Below, one piece after another: positions 6,919-40,424 of a stretch of DNA of 64,000 bases; within the stretch, counting starts at the first letter, position 1, and the number at the start of each line of letters is the position of its first letter. The stretch lies in contig NC_089723.1 in the NCBI RefSeq assembly GCF_035083965.1, positions 32,925,193-32,989,192 of the forward strand, written 5' to 3'. A program made the translations under genes and the position numbers. This DNA comes from Branchiostoma lanceolatum. Lineage: Eukaryota > Chordata > Leptocardii > Amphioxiformes > Branchiostomatidae. The notes under the pieces are model-generated. The model saw only the letters and a list, made by a program, of their open reading frames with translations, did no database searches and had not been told where the DNA came from.

Positions 6919-6933
6919 ATGAATTCTAAGATG
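6919..6933 (+). CDS. Fusion gene exon 1 (start codon)
   Basis: The ATG at 6919 encodes five residues (MNSKM) and is followed at once by a consensus donor GTAAGT. It ends in phase 0, as the exon at 10899 requires. I chose it because it lies just after the tandem promoter-like repeats and no other in-frame ATG with a donor is evident upstream of the OTU exons. An undetected non-coding leader exon remains possible. Confidence 0.5.
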
Positions 6934-9900: not shown

Positions 9901-12900
9901 TGGGTAGGGTTTACGGAAAGGAAGGTCAAGTTCGATAATGGGCCTTATAGCGGGTACCTAAGGTACTGCAGCGGATATTCAAAAATTTAGTGGCATATTT
10001 TCTGAAAGTGCTGTGGTCATGATATTTGTGTGGTAGATAGTTCATGCCACAAGAAGTAAGTTCTGTAAGTTCGGGCCCCCTAGCAGCTTGTTTAGAACTG
10101 CAGTGGGTGTTTTTGTTTTGACATTTGGACACGTATTACTTGAGAAGGGGTGAAGAGAAGTTTTGTATGTAGAGAGCTCAGATGGTGCTTTACACAATTG
10201 ATATCTAATTATAGAAAACAGTAGCTAATCTGCATAATCAGTAAGGATAATTGTAAATCCATTACATTCCATAATGGGTCATGTGACAGTGTTTCCAAAA
10301 CAAGCCAGCAGAAGGCCTTGCCTAGAAGTATAAATAAACAGATGCAGTCTCACTACAATTCAAGCAGATGTGTGGGTCCGGTTGGTTTCAGTTTCAGCAT
10401 TTTTGTCCAACACTCGGGTTGAGACATAACGGAAAGGGAACAAAATAGAAAGCCTTACAAAGCCCCCCCCCCCCATCATAACTTTCAAATGGTATGGTGT
10501 ATGATCAATTTTGCAGGGGGTGATAAGCATGTAAATATTAATCACTCTCCACAATTAGCCTTGATTATTTGGCGAAGATAATGTGTTCGTGGAACTCTAG
10601 TTAGACATAAATCATGCAAATCATTTACATCATTTATAGGGATTGCCTTCTTTGCTTCTTTGATGCATACTTAAAACAACCTGTGTTACTTGGGGAGAGA
10701 AGATGATCAACTGTTATAATATTTGCAAATGAGGACCATATTTGCATGAACAATGAGAGAAATTTATAATGATACGTTCCTCAAAAAGATTAACATCGTT
10801 TGACGAAGGTACTAAGACATCTGTACTATGACATTATCGAACCTTAGATACTTTTCTGTGGAATGACCATAAAGAATAATTTCATTTCTGATTAGCAGCT
10901 GCCATCTGACAGGTGGTGTGGTTTGTCCGGCATCTCTCAACAACTAGAGAATCATCCTGAAGGCAACAGAACAGGTATGAAATCTAATATGATATAATCT
11001 GGACATAATACGTGATGCACATATTGCATTAGGTACGAGTCTATGCTATTTTCTACCCAACTTTTCAAGTGGTCATTTTTCTAAAATTGTATTTTGTTTT
11101 TTGTTTGTATTGTATACCCCGGTAAACCACCTCATGGCATAACACACCATATTTGTACATGTACTGAATTACAGTACAGACTGCATGTCAGAACAGATTC
11201 ATTTGATCCACTCACACCGGGAAGGACCCCTACTCTTTTCGATAAGCGTGGTAGGTTCATTTAAGTGCTCGAGTTGTGTGGCTCTCCTCAAACACAGGAC
11301 CTCCATTTAACGTCCTATCCGAATTAAAACTAACTTTATCACCTTCCCTGCAACAGATTTTGACATCCACCTCAACCGGCTTCTGGCAAACCTTCACCAA
11401 GAGAGGCTGGTCGTCAGAGACTACATAGCCAGGGACGGAAATTGCCAATTCCATTCGATCCTTGATCAATTAAGGCGTCTTGGCAAAGTCAGAGGTTGCT
11501 TGACTGCCGCACACCTCAGAGAAATGGCGGTGTCGTATCTCCGCGACCATCCCGTGTTGGTAAATATTACAAAATGACTGACTGCTACTTAACATAATCA
11601 TTACTACAAGTGTTTGTCATTTTTTAATGTCCAAACAGGGGGTGGGGGGTTGCTGCATCATTCAAAGTCTGTAGTCAGTTATATAAGTTTATCACGATTA
11701 AGATGCATTATCACATAGCCAGATGGCCCTGACCAATCAGAAGCCTCCATTGCGCATGTGTTATGACGTTATATTTTGCAAGCATATGACAAAATAGAAT
11801 AAACCATCTTGATACAACTCAAATCTAAACGGGCCGAAAGAATTCATCCCAATCAGAAGGACACCCAGAAGAAAGGAATGATGATAATGGATAATGGAAT
11901 AGATTTGAAAAAGATTTGACATGGCAAGATTGCAATGTTATCAAATATCATCTGTGAAAATTTTGGTTTTCAAAATGAGCTCTATTATGCTCTGGACAAA
12001 TGTAAATTCTGAATTGCATTCTTAATAGTATAAGGGATCATTTGCCTCATTCAGGAATTGTCAACGCTTATATGGGTCAGTTTCGGTAGGCTATATGATA
12101 ATAATGTTAATGACCCTCGGCTCACTCGATGGTTTTATTCGGACTGCTTACAGCACATGACCAGGCGTTATGACACCATATACACCTCGGGCGGGTCATT
12201 AACCCTTAATTAAGGCATAGCCATTGTCGAATACAATGTATTTCAATCCATGCATATGTTCAAAGAAAATAATCTCCTCTGTTTTACAGCCAGGTTCCAA
12301 TGCAATTCTGGTGGACTTTGTGGCAGGTAGCTGGGAGCAGTATCTAACCGAGATGTCCCGTAATGGATCGTGGGGAGATGACAAAACCCTGCAGGCTTTG
12401 TCAAACATTTTCCAGCTGCCAATACGTATCATCTCTAGTACTTATGTAGGTTTACTTTCATATCACATGTAGTATCATTAGGCATATCATATATCATGCT
12501 GTTATTGCATTCCTTATCGTTTAGGGCTATGTACATCTGTAGCATTGTACATACTGCTGTGTTGCTTTAACGTCTTTCCTGCCAAGCCCAGAGAGCATGG
12601 TAAATTCAGGTAAATAATGAATGCACTGTTCATAATACCATCAACAGTGTTTAAGAAATTCAACACTGAAGTAGAGTCTGGAATGGAAGGACTTGAAATA
12701 TTAGTAATTTCAAAAAAGGGTTGGCCAAATTGGATTTTTGTTTTGTTTTGTCCCAGAACAATGTACAAGTTATGTATCTGATACATTAATTTTTTACAAC
12801 AGGCCATCTAATTCTAAACAACAATGCATGTCAGAGCATTTTTGATATAATTTTGATATGCCACATGTTACATGCTTGTTCCCTGCAGGATGAGCGAGAT

Positions 12901-15900
12901 AAGTATTGCATACATATCTGCCCATCATGGAAGACGTCTCCTTACAAAGATGGCCCAGGTTCTACATGTATCCTGTTAGGACACATTGCAGAGAACCACT
13001 ACGTTAGTCTGGCAAATGGTGACAAGGTGAAGTCAATTAGCAAAATCTAAGATCCTAGACATATATTGATGGGACAGTATGAAAGCAACAACAAACCTTA
13101 TGAAGAGTTAAGATACTGTGTGTAAAGTAGCATGAAGAAATGCAGCACATTATCCTCATACCATTTACCTCAGAAATGCATGGACACGGCTAGATTTTTA
13201 GTTCTTATGAAGGAATATCAGCTTGTCTAAAAAAAGACCAGTGCATATATAGTGACCTGTACATTTTCCTCTGCCTGTTTACCTGTGTGACCTTGTATTT
13301 AAATTGAAGTTAAGTATAATGATTATGAAGAACTGTGCTATATCCACTTAGGTTTATAAAGACACCACATACACAGACAATTATAAAGACATCACAGTCA
13401 CAGCATTCTAGAAGTATACATATTAATATGCTTGTCTGAACACCTTAAGTATATGTGTAGATGATTTTTTAGGGGTATCCAAAAGGGGAGACCCCAAAAT
13501 CTTCCAAAAGATTAAAAAAAGACGACACATATGCTGTGAACTTAAATTATTTCTTACACTTCAGGTGTTAATAGAATATTACTTGTAGTGTAATTATTTT
13601 TTCCATCATACAGGGGGATACTCAACGTGCTTGGGACGGAAGGGCATTTTCCAGTCCAGCAATCCCGACTGCCAACAGATTTGGTGTTCTGTTTAAGGAA
13701 GAGGTACATTTTACTTAATACTTTGCCCTCTATCTGTTGGTGCCTGCAATATTCTTGTATTAACAGCTTCCTCACATCTATTAAATAATTGTAAATACAC
13801 CTATGATGTAGTGAGTGAAAAAGTCATTGTGTCAATAAGCCAAATAATTTGTTTCTGATATGTCTTAGGTGAACACCAACCCCCATGATCATGAGGACAG
13901 CTTTAATGAACCAATTAAACACCCTCGCCGCAAGCACCGCCAAAGGGTTCCGAAACTTGCCAGGCCAGTGTCATCACAAGAGGTACAGTTCTCTCGCTTT
14001 CAACCTCCGGATCTTGCAAAATGATTCCTAAATGATTTTTAATCACAGGACGGCAAATATGCTGTGAAGATAATTATCTATTTCTTACACTTCAGGTGTT
14101 AATAGAATATTACTTGTAGTGTAATTATTTTTTTCATCATACAGGGGGATACTCAACGTGCTTGGGACGGAAGGGCATTTTCCAGTCCAGCAATCCCGAC
14201 TGCCAACAGATTTGGTGTTCTGTTTAAGGAAGAGGTACATTTTACTTAATACTTTGCCCTCTATCTGTTGGTGCCTGCAATATTCTTGTACTAACAGCTT
14301 CCTCACATCTATTAAATAATTGTAAATACACCTATGATGTAGTGAGTGAAAAAGTCATTGTGTCAATAAGCCAAATAATTTGTTTCTGATATGTCTTAGG
14401 TGAACACCAACCCCCATGATCATGAGGACCGCTTTAATGAACCAATTAAACACCCTCGCCGCAAGCACCGCCAAAGGGTTCCGAAACTTGCCAGGCCAGT
14501 GTCATCACAAGAGGTACAGTTCTCTCGCTTTCAACCTCCGGATCTTGCAAAATGATCCCTAAATGATTTTTAATCACAGGACGGCAAATATGCTGTGAAG
14601 ATAATTATCTATTTCTTACACTTCAGGTGTTAAGGCCACAGCAAGTAATTTTTATGGATGACATCAGCGCGCTCATTAATTTTCGCCTGATTTCGAAATA
14701 AAAAACAAGAAATTTCATTGCCCTCCGACGGTGGTCAACATTCCAAAAATGGGCAAATATGTCGTAAACATTGCCAGTCTAAGGTGTTTCATTGCATACG
14801 AATACCCAGTGTAGTTCCTGCCCTAATGGAATGACAAGCTGTTTTCTGCGTTTGTTCTAGTTAATTCTAGTTAATATACACATCTTCAATAACAGTTTAA
14901 TGTTGACAGTCTAAGGTGCTTTGTTGCATATGAGTACCCAGTGTGGTTCCTGCCCATGATGGTATAATAACAAGCTGTTTTCTGTATTTGTTCTAGCAAG
15001 GACATTACTTGTATATAAATAATGGGGGGGGGGGGGGTTCTAGTTAATTGAGCTATATACACAAGGTGTTTCATCGCATATGAATACCCAGTGTAGTTGC
15101 TTCAGATGATGGTACAACAAGCTCTTTTCTGCATTTGTTGTAGTTAGGCTATTGAGATGTATACACATCTACAAGGACATGTTTACTGTTGAATCAATGA
15201 GGTTTTATATTATATATGAAACCTCATTGGTTGAATACAGGAATAAAAGACCTGTTGGTCATGATATCATATTTCGTCTCCTCAATTCTTGATCAAGATT
15301 TATGATCTCAAAATTTGAAAATATAGGAATCTTGTTTTTTTTGCCAGCCTTGTTTTTTTTTCGCCCTATCTCATTAATTTTGGAGTCTGCGGAGGATGTC
15401 ATCCATAAAATTTACTTGCTGTGGCCTAATAGAATATTACTTATAGTGTAATTATTTTTTCCATCATACAGGGGGATACTCAACGTGCTTGGGACGGAAG
15501 GGCATTTTCCAGTCCAGCAATCCCGACTGCCAACAGATTTGGTGTTCTGTTTAAGGAAGAGGTACATTTTACTTAATACTTTGCCCTCTATCTGTTGGTG
15601 CCTGCAATATTCTTGTACTAACAGCTTCCTCACATCTATTAAATAATTGTAAATACACCTATGATGTAGTGAGTGAAAAAGTCATTGTGTCAATAAGCCA
15701 AATAATTTGTTTCTGATATGTCTTAGGTGAACACCAACCCCCATGATCATGAGGACAGCTTTAATGAACCAATTAAACACCCTCGCCGCAAGCACCGCCA
15801 AAGGGTTCCGAAACTTGCCAGGCCAGTGTCATCACAAGAGGTATGTACTTTTACCCATCAATCTTCTCCCTCTTACCTACTTCCATTTTAGCCAATACAG

Positions 15901-18900
15901 ACTGTGTACCCAAACCAAAGTGCCAAATGTGAACATACTATCATGGGCCGGGACAGGACCATGAGATAAATTGGAAGAGGAGGGGGGGATTGTGAGGGTA
16001 AGGGTGGTGGGTTGAGGACAAAGTGGAATGGATATGGGTATGGTTCTCCAACATTTCCTTTTTTTTCCAGATACAGAATACTGATGTTTGTGGGCTACAA
16101 GCAAAGAAGAAAAGACGACAGACAAGAGTGTTCCCTAATGGTTGGTTGATACAAATATACATTTGATGAATGAAATAAATACATGCATTCATGAAGAGGG
16201 ATGAAAATGAGCACACTGTCAATACGTGTAATTTACGAATGTACTATGCCATACTAATCATGGGCCCTGGGGCTGACCTGATTGCTTTCATAACAAGAAT
16301 GTCTTGCAACTGACCAACAAAATCATTTGTCATGTTCTGTGAAAACATTATTTTTGGTCAAAACTTTCCTTAAAAGCAATTTAAAAACAAAACCCTTGTG
16401 GGGGGCATTCTTTAAGGCCCATTTCACAGAATAAAAACAAAAAATGTAATGGGATAATGATCAACCCGGCAATAAAGGTAACCTCTCTGTCTGTACATAA
16501 TGAAGGAAAATTAAAAAAATCTTGAATGAGGATACGTTTTCTACGCAAAACCACTCAAAACACACATCATAAGAACACATGATCTGGGTAATCAGACAAC
16601 AATACCGTGCTACGCTTTATTGTGTATGGCAAATGTGCGCCACCAAAAAACACTTTGAAAAACGGTATTTCCAGGAAATATGAAAACAGGGCAAGTACAT
16701 AAAAAATCTACTTACCCAAACCAACTTTTCACTTGAAATTTAAATGACAGCTTTCTTTGCATTTTTACTTGCAGTAATTGAATTCTTTTTCAGTAAAATG
16801 CACTTTTAAGCATGTAATTATAGGAAAGTTTCAACTACAAGACCAATGAGTGTGGATATCATGTATTTTGGGGAAAGGGCAAAAACTTCAAGAAGCATGA
16901 TGTCACAGCTTACACTCTTTAAGCCACACCAGTTTTAGTCGTTGCTTCTCAGATTTTTACAGAAATAAAATTGGAGCAACAGGGTTAAAAAAGATTGAAA
17001 AAGCATTGTTGCAAAAAGTCTAAGATAAAGACATAGGCTTATATAACATAAAGAACAACAGGATCATTCTTCATATTCAGCAAATGCTGTGTGCCAATCA
17101 TTCCTTTGATCTTTAAGTAAGTTTATAGATTCATTCTTTGATCTCTAAAATCGCTGCAGAGGACGCTGAATTGCGTACTTCATTAGTACAGATTGTTTCT
17201 GATTCTAGCCTGTACTAGTACGGATTGGAATCCTACAACTGAACTGTATCTATATATGTAAATTAGAGACATTTGTATATTATGGCCAATATGAGTAACT
17301 TGATATGCTCAGCCTATTCTTCCAGTTAGTTAGTGGCTCCGTATACTATAATACTACTACTACTGAACTGGAATCTGAATATACAGATTGGAATCCTACT
17401 ACTGTATTGGGGTCTGAATATTGGAATTCCAATCTGTACTTGGACAAATTCTACCAGGACACTCCCCAAGTCCAATGGGAGGAATTCAGATTCAATGAAA
17501 ATGTTTTTGAAGTAGATAAAATTTCAGCATTACAATTCTAGCTATATAGGTAATTACTTGAATTTTAGATATACGATAACCCCACTGTCAGTACACCGTG
17601 AATTTAACCATGGGGTAAGCTAGCCTGTATTTACACAAGCTCTCAGCCGGGGGTTACTGACCCCCACTCTACTCTAGGGGCGTGATTCGTCAGGCTAGGG
17701 GTAAGCCATCTGGTCCAGGTCACAAACCTTCAATCATTTTGACCATTACTGATTGTTCCATGATACACGATTGGACAATTCGCAATTAAGATACTGTCAA
17801 TCGCAATCTGTCCTAGGACAAACTCAAATCTTAGATTACCATGGTACAGTGTTAGTATAAAGGAAAACAACAATATTCTTACAAACCATGATTTTATTCA
17901 GAATCTACAGCTAAGCGTCATCTATTATCAAGCCTTTATCAGTTTTACTAACACTGAAATTTGTTTCAACTACTTGCTAGATAGTGACATAATTGTTGAT
18001 GACTACTAATTACAACAATTATGTATTCAGGCAGCAGTGGCCCCACCCTCCTCGTGACAGCCTGTAGAAAAAAAAAACATTTAGCATATTAAGGTACCTT
18101 GGACCAGAAGTGATATTCTTGAATTATCTGACAGAGCAACCATACATAAAACTAGATCTCCAATTAGGGTTACTATTTGCTAAGCCATTCACTTTCTGCC
18201 ATTTGTTCTCAGAGAACTGTATATACACGTGTTAGAAAATCCCCAGCTTTAGCAAACGAAAAACATACGTTTGAATTCAACAACGGCCTCCCTCCACTTC
18301 TTCTTGGCCCAAGCCCTTGTCAGAGAATCGGGATGGTCGAAAAGCTGTTCCAAATCTCCCAGGATGCGGTTTTCCTCTGCCCACTCTTGCTCTTGTTGTT
18401 TTTGCCTCTCATACGCTTCATGCTCCTTGTCGTCGTCATCCTGATGATTAAAAAATTTATTGTAATTTGTTGTAAGGTTGCTAGCTGACCTCCAGCCACA
18501 ATTAAGATATTATCAACTAAGTTTTATTGTCAAGTTGTAACACACCAGCTTCGAAGGCATGCGGCGCGGCAGCAGCTGGTTATTTTACACCAGTCTGTTA
18601 CACCTAGTCTTTGCTAATCTGACTGCAACATTTCTTTAAAGCTATACAGGTCAGTGAAACAGGTCGGTAGTGGGCATATGTTACAGTGGAACCTTCTCAT
18701 TGGAGACAAGCATAAGAAGCACTAAAACAACACCTTGTGAAAGTACTTACCCTAAGTTCAATCTCAAAAACTATTCTGCACCACATAGCCACAAAGGTAT
18801 ACTTTATAACTATGCAAAGAAAACAGGCTGTTATCCAGTTCGAGGGGAGGGAGCAGTTGAACAGACTTCCATCAGATTATATACAAAACAAGGAACAAAA

Positions 18901-21900: not shown

Positions 21901-24900
21901 GAAAGCCATTTCTGAAATAAAGCTGGCTTCCAGGCCTAGGTTGGGCTTTATGCCCCAGGGTGCAATACAAATTCCTGCTGCTTCCAGATTTATCTGTCAC
22001 ATGTCTCATATTAATTTGTCATTTGTCATGTCGGTTTCTTTGTCAGTATCTTTGTTCTTCGAACAGTATCATTGTACCAAGCATAAACTATGGTAGCAGT
22101 TAATAATATAATCTGGGCACCCTCGTCAATTAAGGACAGGACCCACCTTGAAAGTTTACAATACCAATTTGGCAAATGGTACAAGTTAAGCTACTGTGTT
22201 TGGTGAACTTGGATGGAAATGTATTACAAGCTTACAGGACAAACTTAGACTAAAATACTATGACCGACTCGTAAAAATGAAAGACCAGAGATGGCCAAAA
22301 CTAATACTTCTTTCCAATTTGGCAAATGGTACAAGTTAAGCTACTGTGTTTGGTGAACTTGGATGGAAATGTATTACAAGCTTACAGGACAAACTTAGAC
22401 TAAAATACTATGACCGACTCGTAAAAATGAAAGACCAGAGATGGCCAAAACTAATACTTCTTCAAATTTTTGATATGATGAAGAAAGGGAAAACTATACA
22501 ATGGTACTGGGTTAAGCACATGAAAAATCTTCTCACATCTACATGTATAGGACTGGACCACTCACCTATCAACAAACACTGGGTTAACTCAGCACTAGAA
22601 TAGTCATACCGCCCAACAGAAAGACACCTTTTTAAACAGCCATGGCCTCTAGTAGACAGGGAAAGAATCTCCATATTCACCAACCCTGAATCAGAACTCA
22701 CACAGGCAGGGGGAGTTCTTCTATGGGAAGCATTTACATCTAGTAACACTGAAATGAAAAAAAAACATCTACTCTTATGATACAGGGGTCCATGGGATAC
22801 AATCATTGATGTACTTGCTAAGAGGTACATCCACAACGCATGGCTTACAAGGAGCTGCAACACCACAAGTGAATGTTAATGCCAACTGTGTTCCATCTTC
22901 TCTTCACTGCAGTTTTAAGTTCAGTTTTATGCAACCTTACATCTATGTAACCCACTCTATCCACACCATGTGATTTCTACTATTATTTTCAAATTGACTG
23001 TCTAAAAACCAGCTATGTTGCCTATGAAGACCATTTGTCACCCAGCCTACTTTTTGTTATGCCCCTTATAGTTATACGGTAACTATGGTTTATCATTGTT
23101 AAATCTCACTACTCTCTGTTGATTGTTATCAGTTACTATGTAACATCATATCCTCAAACCACAGCTACATGTAAACCTACCCCGTTATAGTTCTTCGCAC
23201 TAATTGTTTACATCCAGATTACTGCCACATCCCCCCCCCCATCTGTGCACAGTATGCACTCATTAGATGCTTCAAAGTCTGACCTAACAGCTTGTAAATG
23301 CAACTTTAGGTCCCTGAATGTATTGGGAGCTATCTCTATATGACAGGGTGACCAGCTTTTAACATTTTCCCCTCTATATTTCACTTTTTTTGTATCAATC
23401 ATATGGGCCCTCAGACCACAACCATAACCTTCATAGCACCTGTCTCAAGAAGTACTCCCAGGGGACCATTCCTAAGAGGGCAGTTGGAAGGTCCCAAGTC
23501 ATTTTTTTTATCCTACCACAGCCAATCCTATATTGCCCAGATTTCACAAAAAATCCCACCAAAAAAGAATTTTCAATGGTTTAAAAGGGAAATATTTACA
23601 TTTAGGGGTCCCTAGTAGATTTGAAAGCACAATTTGAAATCAAATTTCTCAATGAAAGACTAATTATAACTGTTGTTTATACTTTCAATTACAGGTGATG
23701 GATGGACAAGCAAATTGAAGTGTGGAGGTGACGATCTAGAAGAAATATCTCCCGGCTTGCTAAAAGAACGTAAACCATTTTCACAAGGACAAAGCTGCCA
23801 TGTGTATAAAGGGACCTACAATGGTATACCGGTAGCCATTAAAACCTTGGTGGGCAAAATCCCCAAGAAAGTTAAAAAGTATATCGAAAATGAAGAAAGC
23901 ATATTCAAAAAACTTGAACACAAAAACGTTGTTCAATTCATTGGAATTTTCAACAAAAGCATTGTGTTGGAGTATGTCGAAAAGGCAATTTTTTTTGGAG
24001 GACAAAAATATGTTTTTAACTCAGTGGATGACTTATTAACAGAAATTGGTGAAGATATTCCATGGACTCTGAGAATAAAAATCATGGCACAATCATCAGA
24101 AGGACTGGAGTACCTGCATGAAAAAGGAATTATACACTGTGACATCAAAAGTGCTAATTTCCTTCTTGGAGGTTCCAAGGATAAAGATCAGGACATTGTT
24201 GTAAAGGTACAGACTGAGACTACCTTTGGTAGAAGTAGAAGAAGTCCTACTAACTTTCTTAACAACTTTCAATACGACAAGGTCACAGAGACTTCATATG
24301 TTTTCAAAACATACTAGTAACCTGCAGTACTGGTTTCTTTACACATGGAAGAAATTACAGCAATATACCTGACAGGGGGGATTAGGGTGTTGGTGCAGGC
24401 GCCTAGACCCCGGGGTGAGAGAGCAAAAATAAACATGGCATTAAAACATTGAAAGCTTGGTGAAATTCTTGGTGGGATTTTTGGTGAACTCTTGGCAAGT
24501 CTGGGGTGGGTATTAACACCATATCCAACATATAGAACCCCCTATTCTATTTGGAATACCTCCGTCAAGAATAGCGCTAGTTGGACAGAAATGGCACGTG
24601 TTAAAGTAAGCAGGGTATGTACATCTGTCACAGGTTTTTCACTGTATCAGGCTGCATGTAAGCTCAGGAAAAAACAAATTGAAAAAGAAATTAGCTCGGG
24701 CACTCATGAGGAGGGAGCTTGAAACACATTGACAACTACTACAAAGTTCGCTAGTAGTCAGAGTTCTGCCTCTTCTGTACTTGTGTATGAAACTGATTAA
24801 TATGAATGTGACACTGATGGTCACCAACAAGGTAATGCTATGCGACGCAACCCGCTTCCGCATTGACCGAAAACATAACGCCCTCACCGTAACTACATTT

Positions 24901-27900
24901 ACCCCTTCCTCAAACAACCCTACTCGGTGGATACATCCGTCCACAAAGAAGGCATACTATTTTTATTTGGTCCGCTCTGAAAGGGTTTCAGAGCCAAAAA
25001 AGCTGAACAGAAGACAGTCTGTATATTCGACAGCCATGCACGCGCATGTCTGTCAAGGGCTGTTTTTGACGGACTATTCAAAATAGAACAGGGGGCGGGG
25101 CTTATGGTGTTCGAACTGGATCGGTCCATTCCCGGACAACACTCAGGGAGTGGGAGAGTTCAAATTTCTTTAAGATAACTTGACCTGTATTGTGCCTGAC
25201 CCAATTTCATTTGTTAATGAAAATCATGGTAGGGACTTCATATCAAACATGTACATTCAAGTAGCTTGACCAAAGGGGAAATCAATGAAATATGTTTTTT
25301 TGCTACTTAGCAACTAATCTGCATGACTAACCCATTCCAAACTTCCTTCATCAATGTGAGGGGAAAATCCTACCTTTTCTCAGGGTGTTGTCTTTCAAGT
25401 TTTCTTTTTTCTGAAAATCATTACATAATCTTCTTGATTCTACATTAGGTTGCAGACTTTGGCCAGTCAATGCATCAAGTTGGAATGAGTATAGCTTCAA
25501 GTTCAAGTATGTCATCCCAGCCCACATCAAAAAGACTGAAAGGAACATTGGCTTTTGCTGCACCAGAGACCTTAGAGACAACGAGAAATGAATGCGCAGA
25601 TCTGCCAACAAAAGCAAGTGATATCTACAGTTTGGTGTTATATTTTGTTCAGATTGTGTGCCCCGAAAGAATACATCCTTGGGAAGGTGTAGTTAGGAAG
25701 CCAATTTTCATACCTGAACAAGCAGCTTCTGGCAAACGTCCTTTATTGCCAGAAACAATTGAAGGTGTATCAAATGAAGTTAAAGATTTACTTTTCAAAG
25801 TGATAAGAGAAGGATGGAACCAATGCCCCACACAAAGGCCAAATTCTGCTGATGTTGTAAAGGCTATAAAAAAAATTTCAAATGAATTGTTACATGAATC
25901 ACAAGCAGAAATTATTGACTTGAATTGTCGCCAGAATAACTCAGAAGAAATTGTTAGCCCCACAGAGATGCCAAATTCTGCTAATGTTGTGATAGCTAAA
26001 AGTATCAACAAAATTTCAAATGAATTGTTACATGAATCACAAGCAGAAATTAGCTCTACTGCCACAAAAGACAATCATGACAACCACAAACTTGAAATTA
26101 TTGACTTGGATTGTCGCCAGAATAACTCAGAAGAAATTGTTAGCCCCACAGAGATGCCAAATTCTGCTAATGTTGTAAAAGCTAAAAGTATAAACAAAAT
26201 GTCAAATGAATTGTTACATGAATCGCAAGCAGAAATTGCTGCCACAAAACACAATCATGACGACCACAAACTTGAAATTATTGACTTGAATTGTAGCCAG
26301 AATAGCTTAGAAGAAATTGTTAGTAACATCGTAATGTTTAGTCGGCACATGGGAAATATAGAAACAGATCCGATGAAGTCTCTACCATCATTTGTCACAC
26401 GAAATCCTGTCATATTGCAGGAACTGTCAAATTTGGCAATTAGCGCATCAGATGAAAGTATTGAAGAATTTTTGTCAAAATTCACAGGTGGTAATGCTTG
26501 CACCTTCCTTTCAGTAATTTTAGCTATCAACCTGAGTAACTGTTATGAAAATGACAAACTGTGCTTAAAGAAACTTATTGAAATGATATGTGACAAAATC
26601 ACAAATTCACCCTCTACATTCAACAGCTATAGAGATATTGCCAAATACTACAGTGTGGATGAAGCACTTGACATTTTAACAAAGACTGGCGATCTAAACC
26701 GTAAATACAATGCAGATATACAGTTAGATCTAGAAGCAGGCACAGATGTTGAGATGGCAAAGACTGCACTATTTGATAGTCTTAAAAGTGCTATAATGAC
26801 AACGTCTGAAATATCTACTTTAGGAGTATATTTGTGTGACCCTTTCTCATGTTGCCTAAGTATAATTGCTGTGGCAGCAGATATTTGGAATATAGTTTTC
26901 ATTGACACACATAAAGTTAGTACTCAGCATGGGGGGAAAGGACATGGTGTCTTAATTGTACACAAGATTACAAAAGAAAAAATGCAAGAGGAACTATGTA
27001 CATTTGTTGAATGGCTGTATTGCAGAATGGATTTATATTCACAGACAGGCTGGCAGCAATATTGGATCATTAAACCATATAATGATTGTAACAAGTATCT
27101 AATGGATGGTGAAATATCCGATGAGGCGCTCTGTCTGGTTGACCTCAATGACGCTGACCCAAATTTAGCAGCTGGCCAAACGGCAAATGATGAACTGTCA
27201 TTTCCCTCACCAGTAACAGATTTCATCAGTGATGGTATATCAATCTATAAGAATGATCCTTCTTTAATAGTCACCCAACAGTCAAAAAACAACACTCCAG
27301 TCCATTTGACAGACCCCAATTGTGCAATCGATGAAAGCAGCCAAAATTTAGGCAGTGACAAGCAACAAACTGAAGAAGTTTCTTTTTTCTTGAAAGACAC
27401 CCTCAGTGAAAGTGTAGAAATCGAGGAGTCGACAGCGCAAAAGTTTGGAAGACTTAATAAACAGATTTTTGGGTATGATTGTTTTAGGAAAGGGCAACTG
27501 GAGGCATTACAGTGCTTGAGGAAAAAAAGAGATACTTACCTTTACTGGCCAACTGGTTCAGGTAAGGGACATGTTCATAGATTCTTTGCATTTCTTAATA
27601 ATAAGATGGTGTTTGTTATCACACCAACAATATCACTGATGGTAGATCAGTGTCAGCAAATAAACAGACTTGGGTTTGACCAACGCCTTTCAGCTTGCTT
27701 TCTTGGTTCTGCACAAAAAGACTTAGACGTTGAAAAGGACATGAAAGAGGGTAAATACAATGTTGTCTACCTCACTCCAGAAAAATTTGTGTCACTAGAA
27801 AGCGAACTTCATGATATCAAGGGAAAAAAGGAAATCTGTCTATTTGTCTTGGAGGAAGCACATTGCAATATCCAATGGAAATCATTTAGACCAATATTCA

Positions 27901-30900
27901 ATGAGCTTGTTTTGGTCCTTAATCAACACCCGGAAGTTCCCCGTCTTGCCCTTTCTGCTACCCCACCAGGTGGAGACATAAACCATTTAATAGACATAGC
28001 AGAACTGAGGGAACCAATAATAAGCACCATTCCAATGTTTCGGCCAGAGCTACAACTTTCAGTCCAATCAGGTTGTGCAATAAAGAACCCCATAATCACC
28101 ATAAAATCAATGATAGACGATACACCTGGGAAGACTGTAATATTTTTTGACCTAATACTTACTTTGAATTCATTTGTAGACAAGATAAAAGACATGTACG
28201 ATATTTGTCCAGCTATCTACCATGGTCGGGTTGAAGACAAAACCAATTCCATGGCTACTATATTGTCTCCAAATGTCAAGTTAATTGCAGCAACGAAAGC
28301 ACTTTGTGTAGGCATAGACATTCCTGACGTTACATTGGTGATCCACTATGAAGCTCCAGATTCTTTAGAAGTATATATGCAGGGTGCTGGTAGAGCTGGA
28401 CGACAAAATAACTCCCTTGCACAGTGTGTATTGTTTTACAATGATGAGGACCTAAAGCGTCAGTCAAGCAATAGGTATAAAGAAGAAAATGTAAAAACAA
28501 AAGAAGAAATGATGAAATCACAACTAAAAGTTTTAGCATACTGCCACACCAAAGAATGTCGGTGGAAATTTTTGCTAGAACATTTTGGACAAAGTCTACC
28601 AGAATCAGGTGAAAAATGTCAAAAAAGCTGCGATAATTGCTTGAGATCTAACAGAAATCCTGATGACTATGTAGATGTTACCGATGTTGCATCCAAGCTG
28701 CTTTTAACTATAGCTGAATTAGGTAGATTTCAAAGTAAAACAACGATCATTCACGTAGCCAGAGGGACTACTGCAAAATCGGTTTGGTCTAAAGTTGGTA
28801 AAACTAAAATTCAATCCATGAAAAGCCACGGACTTCTAGCACAACATTCTAAAGCGTTTGTTATTGTACTGTTTGATGATATAATCCCAGATTACATCAA
28901 TTTTGAGGATGGGTACAGAAATATTTACTATAAGCTTACAGACAGAGGAAAAGTCTTTGTGGAGAGAACAGAAGATGGTTGCTTCAAAATTGCTACTGAC
29001 ATTGAAGATAGAATACTCCTCCGAAAACGACATATCTATGAATCTCAACTCACTCCTGAAGGATTTAAAAGCAGGCGAGCAAGGAAACGAAAAAGTGACA
29101 CGCCAGAAGGATCCCTTTCAAAATGTCCCAAGATGTCAGATGCAGAAATTGAAAATGTGAAGTCTAAGATTGTTCTGGCTCCGAGTTTTGTCACTGTTGA
29201 AACTGAAGAGTCAATTCATAAAGCAATTGACACTTCAAGCAGGCAAAATGGATTGACACAGGAATTTTGGAGTGTAGCACTTGATCAACAGCTTCCACGG
29301 GGGGACTTTTGTTTGGACTGTGAAGACCCGGTACCACTTGAGGGCAGACAATTTGATGTTGACTGGAAGATATTTAGTGCAGCTATTGACACCGAAGGAG
29401 TTAAAATTACTTTCAAGTCTCAGTGGACGTCTTTTTTTTCTGGGTATCACTTAAATGATAACACGGTATTATGGCATTCGAAAGGAGCAGAGTTTAGATC
29501 AACCATGGATCAGTTAAGGCTAAATGGTAAAGGGGTCAGTATCAGATGGAGATGTGGAAATTTTAACAATGGGTGCTATATAACAAAAACATGGGTATCA
29601 TGTGGTATAGTGAGAGAAGAAAACACACCACTAAAGATAACATTTGCAGAGGTCATAACAAGCTCAACTAGAAGGCATAAACATTTGTATGGAGATCTTC
29701 CACAGAGAAATAGGACTAAGAAGGGAAAAACATGTGATTTCTCATCCCTTGGAACATCATACGAAGATCATACTCAGATTAAAACAAAGACACCGTCGGT
29801 AGTAAAACCAGCACTTAAGTTCCTTCGTAACAACATTGAATCTTTTAACAATAATCCTTCAGCATACATTAGTGGCAGAGAGAATCTACGATATTCGGAA
29901 TGTAGGAATGACAGAACAAAAGAAACTGAACTAAAATACCCATACTTGAAAGATGTCACAACCATATCAGACTCATCTGTACAAAACACATCAATAAGGA
30001 AGGAATATCACCGTGTGGAGGCTCTCCTTCATTACATTGCAGAATGTAATGAAAAAAAGAGTATGAAAGCAGGAACGTATGATGCTAAGAAAAAAGTTGG
30101 ACTTCACAAGTCATACATTATTTCTCTTGAGTACATCAAATGTGGAGATGGAATTCTTGCAGTTTGTACAGACTTTGTTGCAGTGAAATTGTTCAATCTA
30201 TTTGGGCATAATGTACTTCAAATTGATGGAACTGGCATTGGCCGTTGGGTAGATGGCCATAAAATTCAGATCTGGTCACTTCAGGTAGATGTTGATATTC
30301 TCAGGGCAGACTCCTATCCTACTGCTAAGTATCCAGTGTGTGAAATTTTCAGCGTTAATGATAATACAGCTTTTTCGATCAGTAAAGGTATCTCTGTGTT
30401 TAAAAATTATTGTGCAAAAATGACAAGAGGTAGAACAGTAGAACCTGCATTGGTTAAGCTTGATGCCGATCCAGCTGAAATTAAGGCTGTAAAGGAAAAT
30501 TATAAGTATGCATGTCGCATTGTAGAGCTCAATCATGTTAACAACACTGTAGAAGAATTCCTCCTTGCAACTTTTACCACAAAGGATACGGAAAAATATC
30601 ATGCTTTGCTCTGGCAGTATTGGCTAAGATATTTAAACTCCTCAGATTCTCTAACCGCAAAAGTAATTGCAGATGAGATAAAATCGTTTTGTGAGACGTA
30701 TTTATCAGCACATGTGTCTAAAAAAGTGATTACAAAATTGGTGAAATATTTCAATTATCCTGAAACAGTGTGTGCATTTGGCAGAAGTCACGTGGACCCT
30801 AAACATCTAGGGCCGGCAGAGCAAGAAGGATGGCACAACTTGATAAAAAATGTATATTCCGACCAAAATAGTGTCAACTACAAATATCTAGATGAAGTGA

Positions 30901-32312
30901 TATACAATTCATATCTTCGTAGAAACGAACTAAATCTTAGATTGTTTAATGACTTTCAAAGTGAACAGCTACCAATAAGGGCAAAGAGAAACAAAATCAA
31001 AAACAAGAAAATGAATAAGGTTTTGGAAGATTGTAAGTCCTCAGTACTTGGCGAGGAAGGTGAGCCATTATCTTCTGAAAGCTCAGTTAGTATTGCGGGA
31101 GCCAAGACAGGTAAAACCGGTGCAAAAACAACTGAAGACAATACATCTGATGATGACACACCACGGTCAAAATGGGGACCACGAAAGAGAAAACGAGATA
31201 GGAAAGAAAAACGCAAAAAGCTTTACGGAACACACGAGGAGTATTCAGACACATTTCTGAAGTCCTTGGACGAAAAGATAAGGGAAAAGTATAAAAGCTG
31301 TAAAGCTAGAGCCCCATTTTCAGAAGATCTGAACAGACTTTTGATAAGAACAGATTGTAAACGTGCAATTGAAGAACCAATGCATCAAGGTGACTTTGAA
31401 ATTGTCACTAGTGCCGTTGACCCTGACTCATTTGATTCATTTTTTGAAAGTATAAAACATTTTGCTGCAATAGCACGGGAAAGGAATGAAAATGTTCAAG
31501 TATCATTTGATCAGTGGGAAGACTACAAGTCATCAGCCCAATCGTTTACTGACAGGGATGTTACGCCACATGTGCGATATAGACTACCGATTTCATGTCA
31601 GTTACACACTACATTGAAACTTCTTTGTGAAACAGAAGTACAAGGTGTAGAAGTTGCAAGCGAAGAAATCATTTTCTCGGTGCAAACTGTTTCCAATGTT
31701 GATACTTGGTTTTTCCGTGCAAGTGTTCTGACATCAAATGTGTGGAAAAATGATTTCTCCAAACCAGTCATTCTCCATATTATTCTATCACCACCAGATA
31801 TGCCATCGACCATCAATGGTATTTACACTATCAATGAATTGTCAGACCAAATCAGCTTAAATCACAGAATTGTACCCAACTTGAATTCAAGCTGGAGAAA
31901 AAATGTCTTAGCTAATATGCACATTGTTCCACCAACAAATGAGAAAAATGTAGCATCAGAAAAAGATGTACCAGCTGTTAACTTCAGAATTGGCCATAAC
32001 TGTATGAAGGAAAACGAATATGCACTTCTGAGATATGACGATGAAAATTACAACAAAAATGATGATGGATTTGCACTGGTAAAAATACTTCAAATTGATA
32101 AAGATGATGGCAAAATAGATGTACAGTGGGCAGAGAAAGTTAACTCAAAATCAAATGTTTACCGATTGACAGAGTGTAAGTCCAGTGAACTTATTGAGAC
32201 TGTTATTGCGAACAATGTCAAGATAAGAAACAGTGCACGATCTAAACGTACTATATGTTTGGTGACTAAATTTAAAGATGTTGAAACAGCTTTCGAAAAT
32301 GAACAAGGTTGA
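6919..32312 (+). CDS. OTU-kinase-RecQ helicase-MULE transposase fusion gene (14 exons, 2881 aa predicted)
   Basis: Exons: 6919-6933, 10899-10974, 11357-11559, 12290-12445, 12889-13026, 13614-13703, 13869-13982, 14145-14234, 14400-14513, 15472-15561, 15727-15840, 16071-16140, 23695-24206, 25449-32312. Every junction has GT and AG, and phases match throughout (for example phase 1 across 10974/11357 and 16140/23695). The summed CDS is 8646 nt with no internal stop. Domains: OTU (residues ~45-195), three 68-residue repeats (197-400), TKL-type kinase (~435-715), tail repeats (~715-890), possible papain-like domain (~940-1110), RecQ helicase (~1260-1660), RQC (~1670-1775), FLYWCH-like knuckle (~1950-2006), DDE core (2187/2266/2385), and a C-terminal tail. 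Each domain is recognised from motifs; the fusion itself is inferred from splice phase. A poly(A) signal lies at 33958. Alternative: two or three adjacent genes whose phases match by chance. Confidence 0.7.
7838..8726. repeat. Interspersed repeat with (GACA)n tract
   Basis: The segment starts with CCCAAATCTCCATGAAATTTG and ends with TCTCCATTTTTCATGGAGATA after a (GACA)n run. Parts recur at 36108-36130 (AAAATCTCCATGAAACTTTG) and 36195-36225 (ATATCATTGTAATCCATCAAG). It is a dispersed repeat of unknown class without coding capacity. Confidence 0.5.
9475..10582. mobile_element. Possible TIR element with internal degenerate repeats
   Basis: The left end ATTATCTTCGCC (9475) and the right end GGCGAAGATAAT (about 10572) are inverted copies of 12 bp. 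Just inside the left end is a perfect 20-bp palindrome CCGAGTACTATAGTACTCGG (9485-9504). The interior contains three degenerate direct copies of an ACTCAAGAARCYNTTGATGGATCT...AAGGAAGGTCAAGTTC unit at about 9560, 9700 and 9860. I found no target duplication, so the boundaries are uncertain. Confidence 0.4.
10899..10974 (+). CDS. Fusion gene exon 2
   Basis: The exon lies between ATTAGCAG at 10898 and ACAG|GTATGA at 10974. In the phase set by exon 1 it reads 25 codons (start LPSDRWCGLSG) without a stop and ends in phase 1. The next exon (11357) also begins in phase 1, so the junction codon is G|AT (Asp31). No domain is recognisable. Confidence 0.55.
11260..11325. mobile_element. SINE body remnant beside the OTU exon
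   Basis: TTAAGTGCTCGAG...CAAACACAGGACCTCCATTTAACGTCC resembles the body of the 5S-type SINE at 3575-3635 (TTAACGTGTTCGAG...GAGCACGGGACCCCCGTTTTACGTCC). It has no head or tail. It ends about 30 bp before the splice acceptor of the first OTU exon. Confidence 0.4.
11357..13026 (+). CDS. OTU cysteine protease domain (fusion gene exons 3-5)
   Basis: Exons 11357-11559, 12290-12445 and 12889-13026 encode residues 31-196. The catalytic signature is RDGNCQFHSI with D57 and C60, the nucleophile loop of OTU-family deubiquitinases. The downstream SWGDDKTLQALSNIFQLPI helix is typical of the family, and H187 (ENHYVSL) is the expected catalytic histidine. OTU proteases cleave ubiquitin or ubiquitin-like conjugates in the cytosol or nucleus. 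The Cys, His and preceding Asp are all present, so activity is plausible. Introns are phase 0 within the domain. OTU and ULP1-type proteases are known passengers of some transposons, so the domain alone does not prove a host gene. Confidence 0.85.
13614..15840 (+). CDS. Fusion gene exons 6-11: three 68-residue repeats
   Basis: Exons 13614-13703, 13869-13982, 14145-14234, 14400-14513, 15472-15561 and 15727-15840 are all phase 0 at both ends, so any number of pairs can be included without shifting the frame. Each pair encodes GDTQRAWDGR... followed by VNTNPHDHED..., ending in a basic KHPRRKHRQRVPK segment that could act as a nuclear localisation or nucleic-acid-binding patch. The only coding difference I noticed is Ser to Arg in the second copy (HEDRFNE). 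No known domain is recognised. Confidence 0.75.
14634..15426. mobile_element. TIR element with TAA target duplication (PIF/Harbinger-like)
   Basis: The 793-bp element has terminal inverted repeats starting GGCCACAGCAAGTAA and continuing through ATGGATGACATC (about 35 bp). It is flanked by TAA at 14631-14633 and 15427-15429. The two other copies of the 531-bp unit keep the empty site GTGTTAATAGAAT, which fixes the boundaries exactly. A TAA/TWA target duplication is characteristic of PIF/Harbinger elements. It has no transposase, so it is non-autonomous. It lies in the intron before exon 10. Confidence 0.85.
16071..16140 (+). CDS. Fusion gene exon 12 (linker)
   Basis: The exon follows a strong polypyrimidine acceptor (TTTTTTTTCCAG) and ends AATG|GTTGGT in phase 1. 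It encodes IQNTDVCGLQ then AKKKRRQTRVFPN, a basic cluster resembling a nuclear localisation signal. The kinase exon at 23695 begins in phase 1 (G|GT), giving a continuous reading frame into the kinase. Confidence 0.6.
16921..16985. mobile_element. Partial TIR-like end (AAGCCACACCAG)
   Basis: AAGCCACACCAGTTTTAG resembles the terminal repeat of the short element at 33264-33463. No matching opposite end was found nearby, so this is at most a broken copy. Confidence 0.3.
17200..17560. repeat. Repeat with GATTGGAATCC motifs
   Basis: GATTGGAATCCTAC occurs near 17223 and 17388, and GGAATTCCAATCTGTAC near 17424. The same words make up the arms of the foldback element at 21671-21771, so this is probably a related degenerate element. 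The short open frames here are not supported as genes. Confidence 0.4.
17893..17898 (-). terminator. Poly(A) signal for the antisense nested gene
   Basis: AATAAA on the minus strand (TTTATT on plus) lies about 130 bp past the stop codon at 18027. Confidence 0.4.
18027..21909 (-). CDS. Nested antisense gene, six exons, 184 aa, function unknown
   Basis: Minus-strand exons in order: 21855-21909 (ATG), 21313-21371, 20436-20520, 20048-20196, 18269-18440, 18027-18061. All have GT donors and AG acceptors, phases are consistent, and the CDS totals 555 nt. The protein starts MAFNTYSKEDTQSQ, is acidic (ICFDDSDWIED), has a hydrophobic stretch from exon 4 (CKLFILSILCTFCGFPLVC) and a charged helical C-terminal region (DDDDKEHEAYERQKQQ, then AWAKKKWREAVVEFKR). 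I do not recognise a family. The start of exon 4 is the weakest choice: other acceptors exist, and the hydrophobic stretch depends on it. The ATG exon has its own acceptor at 21912, so a 5' non-coding exon is likely. It lies wholly inside intron 12 of the fusion gene. Confidence 0.5.
19010..19640. repeat. GC-rich patch with CCCGCTG/GCTGACGGG motifs
   Basis: This block is GC-rich against an AT-rich intron. Near its two ends it has CGCGTCAGCGG (about 19050) and its inverted form CCGCTGACGCG (about 19459), with several further TCCCGCTG/GACGGGA repeats. It may be a non-autonomous TIR element. No target duplication was found. Confidence 0.35.
19625..19795. repeat. ~172-bp dispersed repeat, copy 1
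   Basis: From CTATACCACAACAAAGGTCA to GCAAACTGGGCTTTGT the sequence is essentially identical to 20759-20930. It contains a perfect AGGTCAAAGGTCA direct repeat (DR1). Confidence 0.85.
20690..20930. repeat. Dispersed repeat, copy 2
   Basis: 20759-20930 repeats 19625-19795. The flanking GGGGAGGGAGCAGTTGAACA phrase (20700) also occurs at 18843, so pieces of one element are scattered three times in this intron. Confidence 0.8.
21187..21240. repeat. 54-bp segment identical to 37119-37172
   Basis: The run from TTATCACGGTTTTCGATTG to ATGGGATAAATA is the same at both sites. The second site adjoins the 70-bp minisatellite, so this is probably an end or fragment of that repeat family. Confidence 0.8.
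21671..21771. mobile_element. 101-bp foldback element
   Basis: The arms start TATATGTCACAGTACAGATT and pair with the reverse complement at 21735-21771 over about 37 bp with one mismatch and one indel. There is almost no spacer. I found no convincing target duplication. Confidence 0.7.
22165..22604 (+). pseudogene. LINE reverse-transcriptase C-terminal fragment with internal duplication
   Basis: The translation around FGELGWKCITSLQDKLRLKY and the later WPKLI and NKHWVN segments resembles the region after the reverse transcriptase domain of CR1/L2-like non-LTR elements. A ~149-bp part (22165-22313) is repeated in tandem at 22314-22462. The frame stops at 22603, and further related but broken coding continues to about 22860. 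It is a dead fragment with no catalytic motif. Confidence 0.5.
22870..23694 (+). other. 3' part of fusion intron 12
   Basis: I see no gene in this stretch. It is AT-rich with a poly-C run near 23230 and ends with the kinase exon acceptor TTTCAATTACAG. Confidence 0.5.
23695..24206 (+). CDS. Protein kinase N-lobe and catalytic loop (fusion gene exon 13)
   Basis: This exon encodes residues 424-594. It has a degenerate glycine loop (SQGQSCHVYKG), the ATP-anchoring lysine in VAIK (K473), a C-helix glutamate candidate in IENEESIFKKLEHKNVV, and the catalytic loop HCDIKSANFLL with D573 and N578. The next exon starts with VADFG, so the intron splits the domain just before the DFG motif. Sequence style and the C-lobe suggest a TKL (RIPK/MLK-like) Ser/Thr or dual-specificity kinase. 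Apart from the reduced glycine loop, the catalytic residues are intact. Confidence 0.9.
24207..25448 (+). other. Fusion gene intron 13
   Basis: This 1.2-kb phase-0 intron splits the kinase domain. No gene or clear repeat is seen in it. Confidence 0.7.
25449..32312 (+). CDS. Fusion gene exon 14: kinase C-lobe, RecQ helicase, transposase (2287 codons)
   Basis: One uninterrupted 6.9-kb exon encodes residues 595-2881. It begins with the kinase DFG (597-599), then AAPE (E634) and DIYS, completing the kinase at about 715. Tail repeats, a possible papain-like domain (C945, H1093), a RecQ helicase (~1260-1660), an RQC winged helix (~1670-1775), a FLYWCH-like zinc knuckle (C1963, C1970, H2004, H2006), a MULE-like DDE core (D2187, D2266, E2385), a Lys/Arg-rich spacer (KKMNK, RKRKRDRKEKRKK) and a C-terminal region follow. 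Such a long exon in an otherwise intron-rich gene is typical of transposon or retrocopy ancestry. The reading frame is intact and so probably under selection or young. Confidence 0.85.
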   Translation, partial: VADFGQSMHQVGMSIASSSSMSSQPTSKRLKGTLAFAAPETLETTRNECADLPTKASDIYSLVLYFVQIVCPERIHPWEGVVRKPIFIPEQAASGKRPLLPETIEGVSNEVKDLLFKVIREGWNQCPTQRPNSADVVKAIKKISNELLHESQAEIIDLNCRQNNSEEIVSPTEMPNSANVVIAKSINKISNELLHESQAEISSTATKDNHDNHKLEIIDLDCRQNNSEEIVSPTEMPNSANVVKAKSINKMSNELLHESQAEIAATKHNHDDHKLEIIDLNCSQNSLEEIVSNIVMFSRHMGNIETDPMKSLPSFVTRNPVILQELSNLAISASDESIEEFLSKFTGGNACTFLSVILAINLSNCYENDKLCLKKLIEMICDKITNSPSTFNSYRDIAKYYSVDEALDILTKTGDLNRKYNADIQLDLEAGTDVEMAKTALFDSLKSAIMTTSEISTLGVYLCDPFSCCLSIIAVAADIWNIVFIDTHKVSTQHGGKGHGVLIVHKITKEKMQEELCTFVEWLYCRMDLYSQTGWQQYWIIKPYNDCNKYLMDGEISDEALCLVDLNDADPNLAAGQTANDELSFPSPVTDFISDGISIYKNDPSLIVTQQSKNNTPVHLTDPNCAIDESSQNLGSDKQQTEEVSFFLKDTLSESVEIEESTAQKFGRLNKQIFGYDCFRKGQLEALQCLRKKRDTYLYWPTGSGKGHVHRFFAFLNNKMVFVITPTISLMVDQCQQINRLGFDQRLSACFLGSAQKDLDVEKDMKEGKYNVVYLTPEKFVSLESELHDIKGKKEICLFVLEEAHCNIQWKSFRPIFNELVLVLNQHPEVPRLALSATPPGGDINHLIDIAELREPIISTIPMFRPELQLSVQSGCAIKNPIITIKSMIDDTPGKTVIFFDLILTLNSFVDKIKDMYDICPAIYHGRVEDKTNSMATILSPNVKLIAATKALCVGIDIPDVTLVIHYEAPDSLEVYMQGAGRAGRQNNSLAQCVLFYNDEDLKRQSSNRYKEENVKTKEEMMKSQLKVLAYCHTKECRWKFLLEHFGQSLPESGEKCQKSCDNCLRSNRNPDDYVDVTDVASKLLLTIAELGRFQSKTTIIHVARGTTAKSVWSKVGKTKIQSMKSHGLLAQHSKAFVIVLFDDIIPDYINFEDGYRNIYYKLTDRGKVFVERTEDGCFKIATDIEDRILLRKRHIYESQLTPEGFKSRRARKRKSDTPEGSLSKCPKMSDAEIENVKSKIVLAPSFVTVETEESIHKAIDTSSRQNGLTQEFWSVALDQQLPRGDFCLDCEDPVPLEGRQFDVDWKIFSAAIDTEGVKITFKSQWTSFFSGYHLNDNTVLWHSKGAEFRSTMDQLRLNGKGVSIRWRCGNFNNGCYITKTWVSCGIVREENTPLKITFAEVITSSTRRHKHLYGDLPQRNRTKKGKTCDFSSLGTSYEDHTQIKTKTPSVVKPALKFLRNNIESFNNNPSAYISGRENLRYSECRNDRTKETELKYPYLKDVTTISDSSVQNTSIRKEYHRVEALLHYIAECNEKKSMKAGTYDAKKKVGLHKSYIISLEYIKCGDGILAVCTDFVAVKLFNLFGHNVLQIDGTGIGRWVDGHKIQIWSLQVDVDILRADSYPTAKYPVCEIFSVNDNTAFSISKGISVFKNYCAKMTRGRTVEPALVKLDADPAEIKAVKENYKYACRIVELNHVNNTVEEFLLATFTTKDTEKYHALLWQYWLRYLNSSDSLTAKVIADEIKSFCETYLSAHVSKKVITKLVKYFNYPETVCAFGRSHVDPKHLGPAEQEGWHNLIKNVYSDQNSVNYKYLDEVIYNSYLRRNELNLRLFNDFQSEQLPIRAKRNKIKNKKMNKVLEDCKSSVLGEEGEPLSSESSVSIAGAKTGKTGAKTTEDNTSDDDTPRSKWGPRKRKRDRKEKRKKLYGTHEEYSDTFLKSLDEKIREKYKSCKARAPFSEDLNRLLIRTDCKRAIEEPMHQGDFEIVTSAVDPDSFDSFFESIKHFAAIARERNENVQVSFDQWEDYKSSAQSFTDRDVTPHVRYRLPISCQLHTTLKLLCETEVQGVEVASEEIIFSVQTVSNVDTWFFRASVLTSNVWKNDFSKPVILHIILSPPDMPSTINGIYTINELSDQISLNHRIVPNLNSSWRKNVLANMHIVPPTNEKNVASEKDVPAVNFRIGHNCMKENEYALLRYDDENYNKNDDGFALVKILQIDKDDGKIDVQWAEKVNSKSNVYRLTECKSSELIETVIANNVKIRNSARSKRTICLVTKFKDVETAFENEQG
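25850..26335 (+). repeat. In-frame tail repeats after the kinase
   Basis: The segment PNSADVVKAIKKISNELLHE with the following SQAEIIDLNC and NNSEEIVS parts recurs about three times within residues 728-890, with changes and small insertions. The first copy is the last helix of the kinase domain, so the repeats arose by tandem duplication of that end. Confidence 0.85.
26480..27090 (+). other. Possible papain-like cysteine protease domain within exon 14
   Basis: Residues ~940-1130 include FTGGNACTFLSVILAINL (C945) and KGHGVLIVHK (H1093), spaced like the Cys and His of small papain-fold proteases. A conserved-looking WQQYWIIKPY follows. I infer a second, non-OTU peptidase from this pattern alone. 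It could equally be a structural domain without activity. Confidence 0.35.
27440..28985 (+). other. RecQ-type helicase module within exon 14
   Basis: Motifs in order: motif 0 FGYDCFRKGQLEAL (~1267), Walker A WPTGSGKG (~1294), VITPTISLMVDQ, LTPEKF, Walker B LEEAHC (~1395), SATPPGG, IDIPDVTLVIHYEAPDS, and motif VI QGAGRAGR (~1572). The zinc region is C1631 (CRWKF) with CQKSCDNC (to C1658), and an RQC-like winged helix follows (SKLLLTIAELGRF, then YKLTDRGK). RecQ enzymes unwind DNA 3'-5' using ATP. Here the Walker A Ser/Thr is Gly and the Walker B Asp is Glu, so ATPase activity is doubtful. Confidence 0.85.
29380..30960 (+). other. FLYWCH-like knuckle and MULE-like DDE transposase core within exon 14
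   Basis: RWRCGNFNNGC with a later RRHKH gives C1963-x6-C1970...H2004-x-H2006, the layout of FLYWCH/WRKY-type zinc fingers that often precede Mutator-like transposases. The core has VLQIDGTGIGRW (D2187), LVKLDADPAEIKAVKE (D2266) followed by a C...H pair, and PAEQEGWHNL (E2385), spaced 79 and 119 residues. This fits an RNase H-fold DDE enzyme of the MULE type. The assignment is from pattern only. Confidence 0.55.
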
Positions 32313-36240: not shown

Positions 36241-36246
36241 GTTTTA

Positions 36247-40284: not shown

Positions 40285-40424
40285 GTGAGAAACTTGTGTT
40301 TCTATATACTCAGCATCTTCAGCTAATTTGACTCGTATGTTTAGAATTGTTGGATATTCAGTCTTATTTGAACTAATTAAGTCTCCCATCGTGGTCTCTT
40401 ATTCACCCCCATGAAACTCCTTAT

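Follow-up and report, generated by a model that had tools for sequence, protein, structure and literature searches.

In Branchiostoma lanceolatum, a protein kinase and a RecQ module are joined in one protein, a well-supported fusion since the kinase C-lobe and the RecQ segment sit on one exon of 2287 codons. The kinase is the new element of this protein. We tentatively read the product as a DNA-tethered kinase, encoded by a kinase-RecQ gene that is probably transposon-derived and probably immobile.

Results

Gene model of the kinase-RecQ locus

We analysed a 64-kb stretch of DNA (the window), in which the locus occupies 6919-32312 (+). Re-splicing the 14 proposed exons reproduced the intact 2881-residue frame of the original prediction, with a stop only at its end. 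The residues named there were all recovered in place: DGNC from 57 (C60), ENHYVSL at 185 (H187), VAIK at 470 (K473), HCDIKSAN at 571, DFG at 597, QGAGRAGR at 1572, IDGTG at 2186 (D2187) and KLDAD at 2264 (D2266); EGWH begins at model residue 2387, with E2385 immediately ahead of it. Splice donors were scored with a donor matrix, on which the donor scores depend, and consensus patterns for RecQ, kinase and FLYWCH were applied by eye.

The last exon (25449-32312, +) is an open reading frame of 2287 codons plus stop without any interruption, a length far beyond chance. Its ATG-started form, of 2280 amino acids, is present in the protein database that we searched (P0001).

An active-looking RIPK-like kinase split over two exons

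Exon 13 (23695-24206, +) encodes the kinase from the N-lobe to the catalytic loop (VAIK, HCDIKSAN), and the C-lobe (DFG, APE) follows at the start of exon 14 (25449-25868, +), where profile and PDB matches cover it; the splice cuts the domain just ahead of DFG. The exon-13 frame by itself matched Pfam Pkinase at 4.9e-19, and joining exons 13 and 14 brought the match to 8.7e-30. RIPK2, RIPK1 and IRAK4 are its top matches among solved structures, and we therefore assign the kinase to the TKL group, which bears out the earlier TKL claim. The domain keeps K, HCD..N, DFG and APE; by eye, one of the three glycines of the glycine loop is retained. It is a RIPK-like TKL kinase that looks active. No death or CARD domain matched in the pieces scanned.

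Between the kinase and the RecQ module, in-frame tandem repeats with spacings of 186 and 180 nt cover the kinase tail and an acidic linker (25873-26323, +). Their synonymous to nonsynonymous codon changes stand at 3:3 and 1:6, and they therefore give no clear signal of purifying selection. They are followed, inside the same exon, by a segment of ~240 residues in which a Cys ... Asp-x-His arrangement can be seen by eye (NACTF ... FIDTH ... GHG; 26484-26960, +) and which is absent from the original prediction. This stretch had no Pfam or NCBIfam match and an irrelevant PHROGs match, and a single-sequence AF2 model of 26388-27113 was unusable (pLDDT 38.5). The segment is possibly cysteine-peptidase-like, which we offer as a lead only.

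A RecQ module with altered nucleotide-binding motifs

The RecQ segment (27456-28967, +) matched the Pfam profiles DEAD (8.7e-20), Helicase_C (2.5e-13) and RecQ zinc-binding (1e-9), all passing their cut-offs, together with a weak RQC match under its cut-off; no HRDC match was found. In the PDB it matched 1oyw, which we take to be E. coli RecQ, and human WRN, both at about 1e-40. The RecQ assignment made earlier from QGAGRAGR and zinc-binding cysteines thus holds. In the alignments to 1oyw and WRN, Walker A reads GSGKG where both show GKS (the usual form being GxGKS/T), and DEAH is replaced by EEAH; neither motif has the form expected for ATP hydrolysis. From general knowledge of P-loop enzymes, loss of the Walker A Ser/Thr suggests that ATP hydrolysis would be weakened.

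The C-terminal tail and the transposase question

Downstream of RecQ, the original prediction had pointed to a FLYWCH-like knuckle and a MULE-like DDE transposase. The underlying residues exist. A C-x6-C ... H-x-H pattern is visible by eye at 29544-29684 (+), and DDE-like residues (30216-30836, +, by eye) are D1593, D1672, H1696 and E1793 of exon 14, or D2187, D2266, H2290 and E2387 in the model. At exon 14 positions 1693-1696 the sequence reads ELNH, with E where the C/DxxH signature expects C or D (by eye); a DPKH does occur in the tail, but 7-10 residues ahead of E1793. A basic stretch, RKRKRDRKEKRKK, lies further downstream (31182-31220, +) and is a possible nuclear localisation signal, judging from its composition.

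Neither claim gained support from profiles or homology. Searches of Pfam, PHROGs and NCBIfam at E<=10 matched no FLYWCH and no transposase profile, and returned unrelated sub-threshold families only. A check set beforehand, for HMM support of a transposase in residues 1950-2450, likewise found none, with a test that is insensitive to remote families. The unassigned pieces of the protein, compared with the PDB, gave irrelevant matches only; two of these, to AcrF6 (E 0.044) and, over the finger region, to PC4-like p15 (E 0.018), were too weak to use. In the protein database, the 781-residue C-terminal piece had no match at E<=1e-3 among the 7999 candidates sharing most words (a list that its K-rich stretch may have crowded), and the DDE-like core had none at E<=10 among 3101 candidates. 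Three pieces compared with viral contigs found no relative.

We also compared the core with a bacterial MULE/IS256 profile, built from 28 of 30 loci, scoring 201 sequences (the core and 200 shuffles). The core ranked 31 of the 115 listed, within the shuffles, and hhalign gave it a probability of 0.2% (0.1-0.5% for 20 shuffles); with an earlier build, possibly with wrong frames, the listing covered 94 of 202 sequences and did not include the core. These results are an absence of support rather than disproof, because animal MULEs are only distantly related to the bacterial loci and none of them served as a positive control. A motif pattern fixed before the test found 1 match in 2000 shuffled cores and 4 in 500 shuffled ORFs, and none in the protein itself, so we give the D/D/E spacing little weight. 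Since no profile shows a transposon domain in the tail, the proposed transposon origin is argued from motifs and exon architecture.

Copies and ends of a possible element

No terminal inverted repeat (TIR) of at least 60 nt flanks the gene within 3000-40000, and a gapped inverted-repeat search across exon 14 gave weak pairs only (best E 0.003, 67% identity over 132 columns). The one inverted pair in the search for repeats of at least 60 nt over 3000-40000 was a perfect palindrome (34379-34597; 104-nt arms, 11-nt loop), which lies 2 kb downstream of the gene. By tblastn, no fragment copies of the protein occur elsewhere in the 64-kb window. A search of the protein database returned 8 proteins, among them P0001, which is one sequence on one 40.4-Mb contig; the other 7 are helicases whose names or Pfam domains mark them as RecQ-type, and no second copy was found among the length-compatible candidates. 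WRN (chain 9hzg_E, 1432 aa, inside the length limits) scored 137.4 bits in the PDB search, yet was missing among these 8 matches; the database search is therefore insensitive and excludes close relatives only, within the length limits.

The OTU part and its join to the kinase

The upstream exons encode an OTU domain (exons 2-5: 10899-10974, 11357-11559, 12290-12445 and 12889-13026, +) with C60 (DGNC) and H187 both present, as had been proposed. Pfam matched it at 1e-12, over 57-152 and thus short of the His, and the PDB gave OTU domain-containing protein 2 (E 3e-4). Exon 1 (6919-6933, +; MNSKM) belongs to the splice model without homology support; it lies where a 264-nt tandem repeat ends and has a strong donor, GTAAGT, whose score is reached by 0.2% of 1390 GT sites. 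In exons 6-11 (13614-15840, +), one exon pair (GDTQRAW..., VNTNPHD...) stands three times in tandem. The corresponding blocks (13521-14102, 14049-14633 and 15427-15843) are 98.1-99.5% identical pairwise, introns included, and by this identity the three copies are a recent local duplication.

Whether OTU, kinase, RecQ and tail share one transcript, giving a single 2881-residue protein, is a matter independent of the origin of the gene and compatible with each reading of it; we regard it as nearly balanced, leaning slightly to doubt. Exon 12 (16071-16140, +), placed by the splice model, has a weak donor (GTTGGT) that scores −0.32, the lowest among the 13 donors, with four others barely higher (the donors of exons 7 and 9 score −0.18); 11.4% of the 1390 GT sites equal or beat it. 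The intron to exon 13 is 7.55 kb long, and if exon 12 is left unspliced, a stop (16164-16166) and an AATAAA (from 16174) follow directly past the donor. Composition also differs between the two parts: GC3 is 50% over the 259 codons of exons 2-7 versus 27-36% (mean 31%) in exons 13-14, in windows sized as that OTU set; the 30% of exon 12 comes from only 23 codons. Against this stand the shared strand of the OTU and kinase exons, the single in-frame phase-1 donor of moderate score that exon 12 offers, and the absence of an ATG ahead of the kinase lysine in exon 13, so that an upstream exon is needed. Alternative starts are few: a scan of the exon 12-13 interval for one-exon 5' ends gave 4 ATG-to-donor candidates of the right phase and a score of at least −0.5, from 3 ATGs. 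The single protein predicted at the outset thus stands for kinase and RecQ, and its OTU-kinase join is weak in donor, intron length and GC3; the OTU part may be a separate upstream gene.

Other features of the window

Downstream of the gene, an inverted repeat pair (40404-40789 and 44411-44797; 387 bp, 386/387 identical) carries subterminal TTATGGGCCGTACCCGG repeats and encloses a C2H2 zinc-finger ORF (42880-43452, minus). No target duplication of at least 6 bp was found at its ends; the whole (40404-44797) looks, from its sequence, like a young, long-TIR element. ORFs 38473-39777 and 58931-59788 are probably LINE fragments, given weak, sub-cut-off Pfam matches to reverse transcriptase and to the zinc-binding region of that enzyme. 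A tandem array with units of 62/70 nt occupies 36188-37095. Upstream of the gene, a 5S rRNA-like sequence (3662-3784, minus; 50.9 bits), perhaps a pseudogene or a 5S-derived repeat, lies near two segments, 2798-3495 and 4952-5651, that are 98.4% identical.

Discussion

Comparison with known systems

The nearest published analogue for RecQ in a mobile element is fungal KolobokH, which pairs a RecQ helicase with a DDD/E transposase and is said, in the available parts of PMC9587614, to occur only in fungi. The likeness lies in RecQ alongside a DDD/E transposase, a part that consists of motifs only in the lancelet protein. The two differ in order, RecQ being downstream of the transposase in KolobokH and upstream of the DDE-like part here; KolobokH also makes TTAA target duplications, and a kinase goes unmentioned in those parts of PMC9587614. 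AcademH is a further lineage of helicase-coding DNA transposons, which like our protein is present in animals (and in fungi), and helicase host-transposon fusions are described as common in fungi (excerpts of PMC10799480).

Among MULEs, the mosquito element Muta1 has D214, D283, H307 and E419, with W401 conserved 18 residues before the E (excerpts of PMC5225508). By eye, the two proteins share an H 24 residues past the second D and a FLYWCH-like finger ahead of the D/D/E-like residues; W401, however, has no counterpart here (C2369 is in its place), and the Muta1 transposase has 504 aa, whereas the giant exon has 2287 codons and no transposase profile match. MULEs make 8-11 bp duplications and have long TIRs, of which none was found flanking the present gene; TIRs are absent in some MULEs. 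The Hydra MULE MuDR-6_HM is listed with an Ovarian Tumour motif in Table 1 of PMC6446971, a likeness to the OTU domain upstream of our kinase; in that paper's main text, "kinase" and "helicase" occur 0 times. Chordate MULEs are hardly documented, and reported lancelet MULE transposases could not be confirmed in one study. FLYWCH-type domestication has been reported in animals (excerpt of PMC10027918).

With the RIPK/IRAK group of TKL kinases the protein shares its best solved-structure matches, and differs from it in being fused to RecQ and in having no death or CARD match in the scanned pieces. BLM, WRN and bacterial RecQ share with it the helicase core, the zinc-binding domain and a weak RQC; here, in contrast, Walker A is GSGKG, DEAH is EEAH and HRDC has no match. 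As far as our searches reach, the single modules have precedents, and neither the kinase nor the whole combination does; no kinase in a transposon-type protein of this kind was found in the literature searched.

Origin and possible role of the protein

Exons 13 and 14 encode, as a real fusion, an active-looking RIPK-like TKL kinase, RecQ and an extended tail that looks DNA-binding. We tentatively propose that the 6.9-kb intronless, AT-rich exon most likely derives from the ORF of a DNA transposon, now a single immobile gene. RecQ and the tail would hold the protein on DNA, the basic stretch would direct it to the nucleus, and the kinase domain would be the active output; RecQ would contribute DNA binding or weak ATPase activity more than strong unwinding. 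We counted in favour of this reading the uninterrupted 2287-codon exon, the kinase residues and the profile match across the splice of exons 13 and 14, the RecQ matches with their altered Walker A and DEAH motifs, a composition unlike that of the OTU exons, the single database member, the lack of a TIR of at least 60 nt, of a second copy among the length-compatible candidates and of fragments in the window, and the published precedents of helicase-carrying transposons and host-transposon fusions. Counted against it were the profile-less tail, the insensitivity of the database search, and internal repeats without clear purifying selection.

An autonomous DNA transposon of low copy number, resembling MULEs or Kolobok, with the kinase, RecQ and perhaps OTU as accessory modules for transposition, strikes us as unlikely. 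It would account for the D/D/E-like residues with an H placed as in Muta1 (PMC5225508), for the FLYWCH-like C2-HxH pattern upstream of them, and for RecQ and an OTU motif, which are known from KolobokH (PMC9587614) and MuDR-6_HM (PMC6446971). It has to contend with a transposase and a finger that lack profile support, a long TIR and a further copy that were not found, altered RecQ Walker residues, ELNH in place of C/DxxH, the unmatched W401 of Muta1 and a RecQ that comes before the putative transposase instead of after it. Rather unlikely, too, is a fast-evolving host gene in which a RIPK-like kinase became fused to RecQ and a lineage-specific tail unrelated to transposases: among solved kinases, RIPK2, RIPK1 and IRAK4 come nearest, the tail matches nothing useful, and motif triads of this kind are easily found by eye, the preset pattern having failed to match; but the adjacent multi-exon OTU part, with its GC3 of 0.50, differs in kind from a last exon that is 6.9 kb long, intronless and AT-rich. 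That unrelated loci were joined by an artefact of assembly or gene modelling is very improbable; the near-identical tandem duplications of the OTU part (98.1-99.5%) would be in keeping with this, but the kinase halves fit over the splice, the 2287-codon frame is intact and the contig measures 40.4 Mb.

The original prediction had left open a giant autonomous element or a domesticated factor. That the giant exon came from a transposon stays plausible; the giant autonomous MULE is unsupported, having no transposase profile, no TIR of at least 60 nt, no second copy among the candidates searched and altered RecQ nucleotide-binding motifs. We consider it improbable that one polypeptide of a giant animal DNA transposon, or of its domesticated descendant, holds an OTU deubiquitinase, a RIPK-like kinase, RecQ and a diverged MULE-like transposase; if it did, the element would come with ubiquitin and phosphorylation switches of its own.

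Should exon 14 be transposon-derived, as we tentatively favour, this protein would be the first of its sort, within the literature searched, to have a signalling kinase built in next to RecQ, and it would raise the question of whether phosphorylation serves mobile elements, or the domesticated genes descended from them, to steer repair or transposition. If it is instead a host gene, a RIPK-like kinase combined with RecQ would be an unusual candidate for a DNA sensor or a genome-maintenance factor. Under either origin, the fusion of kinase and RecQ is a concrete finding that can be tested.
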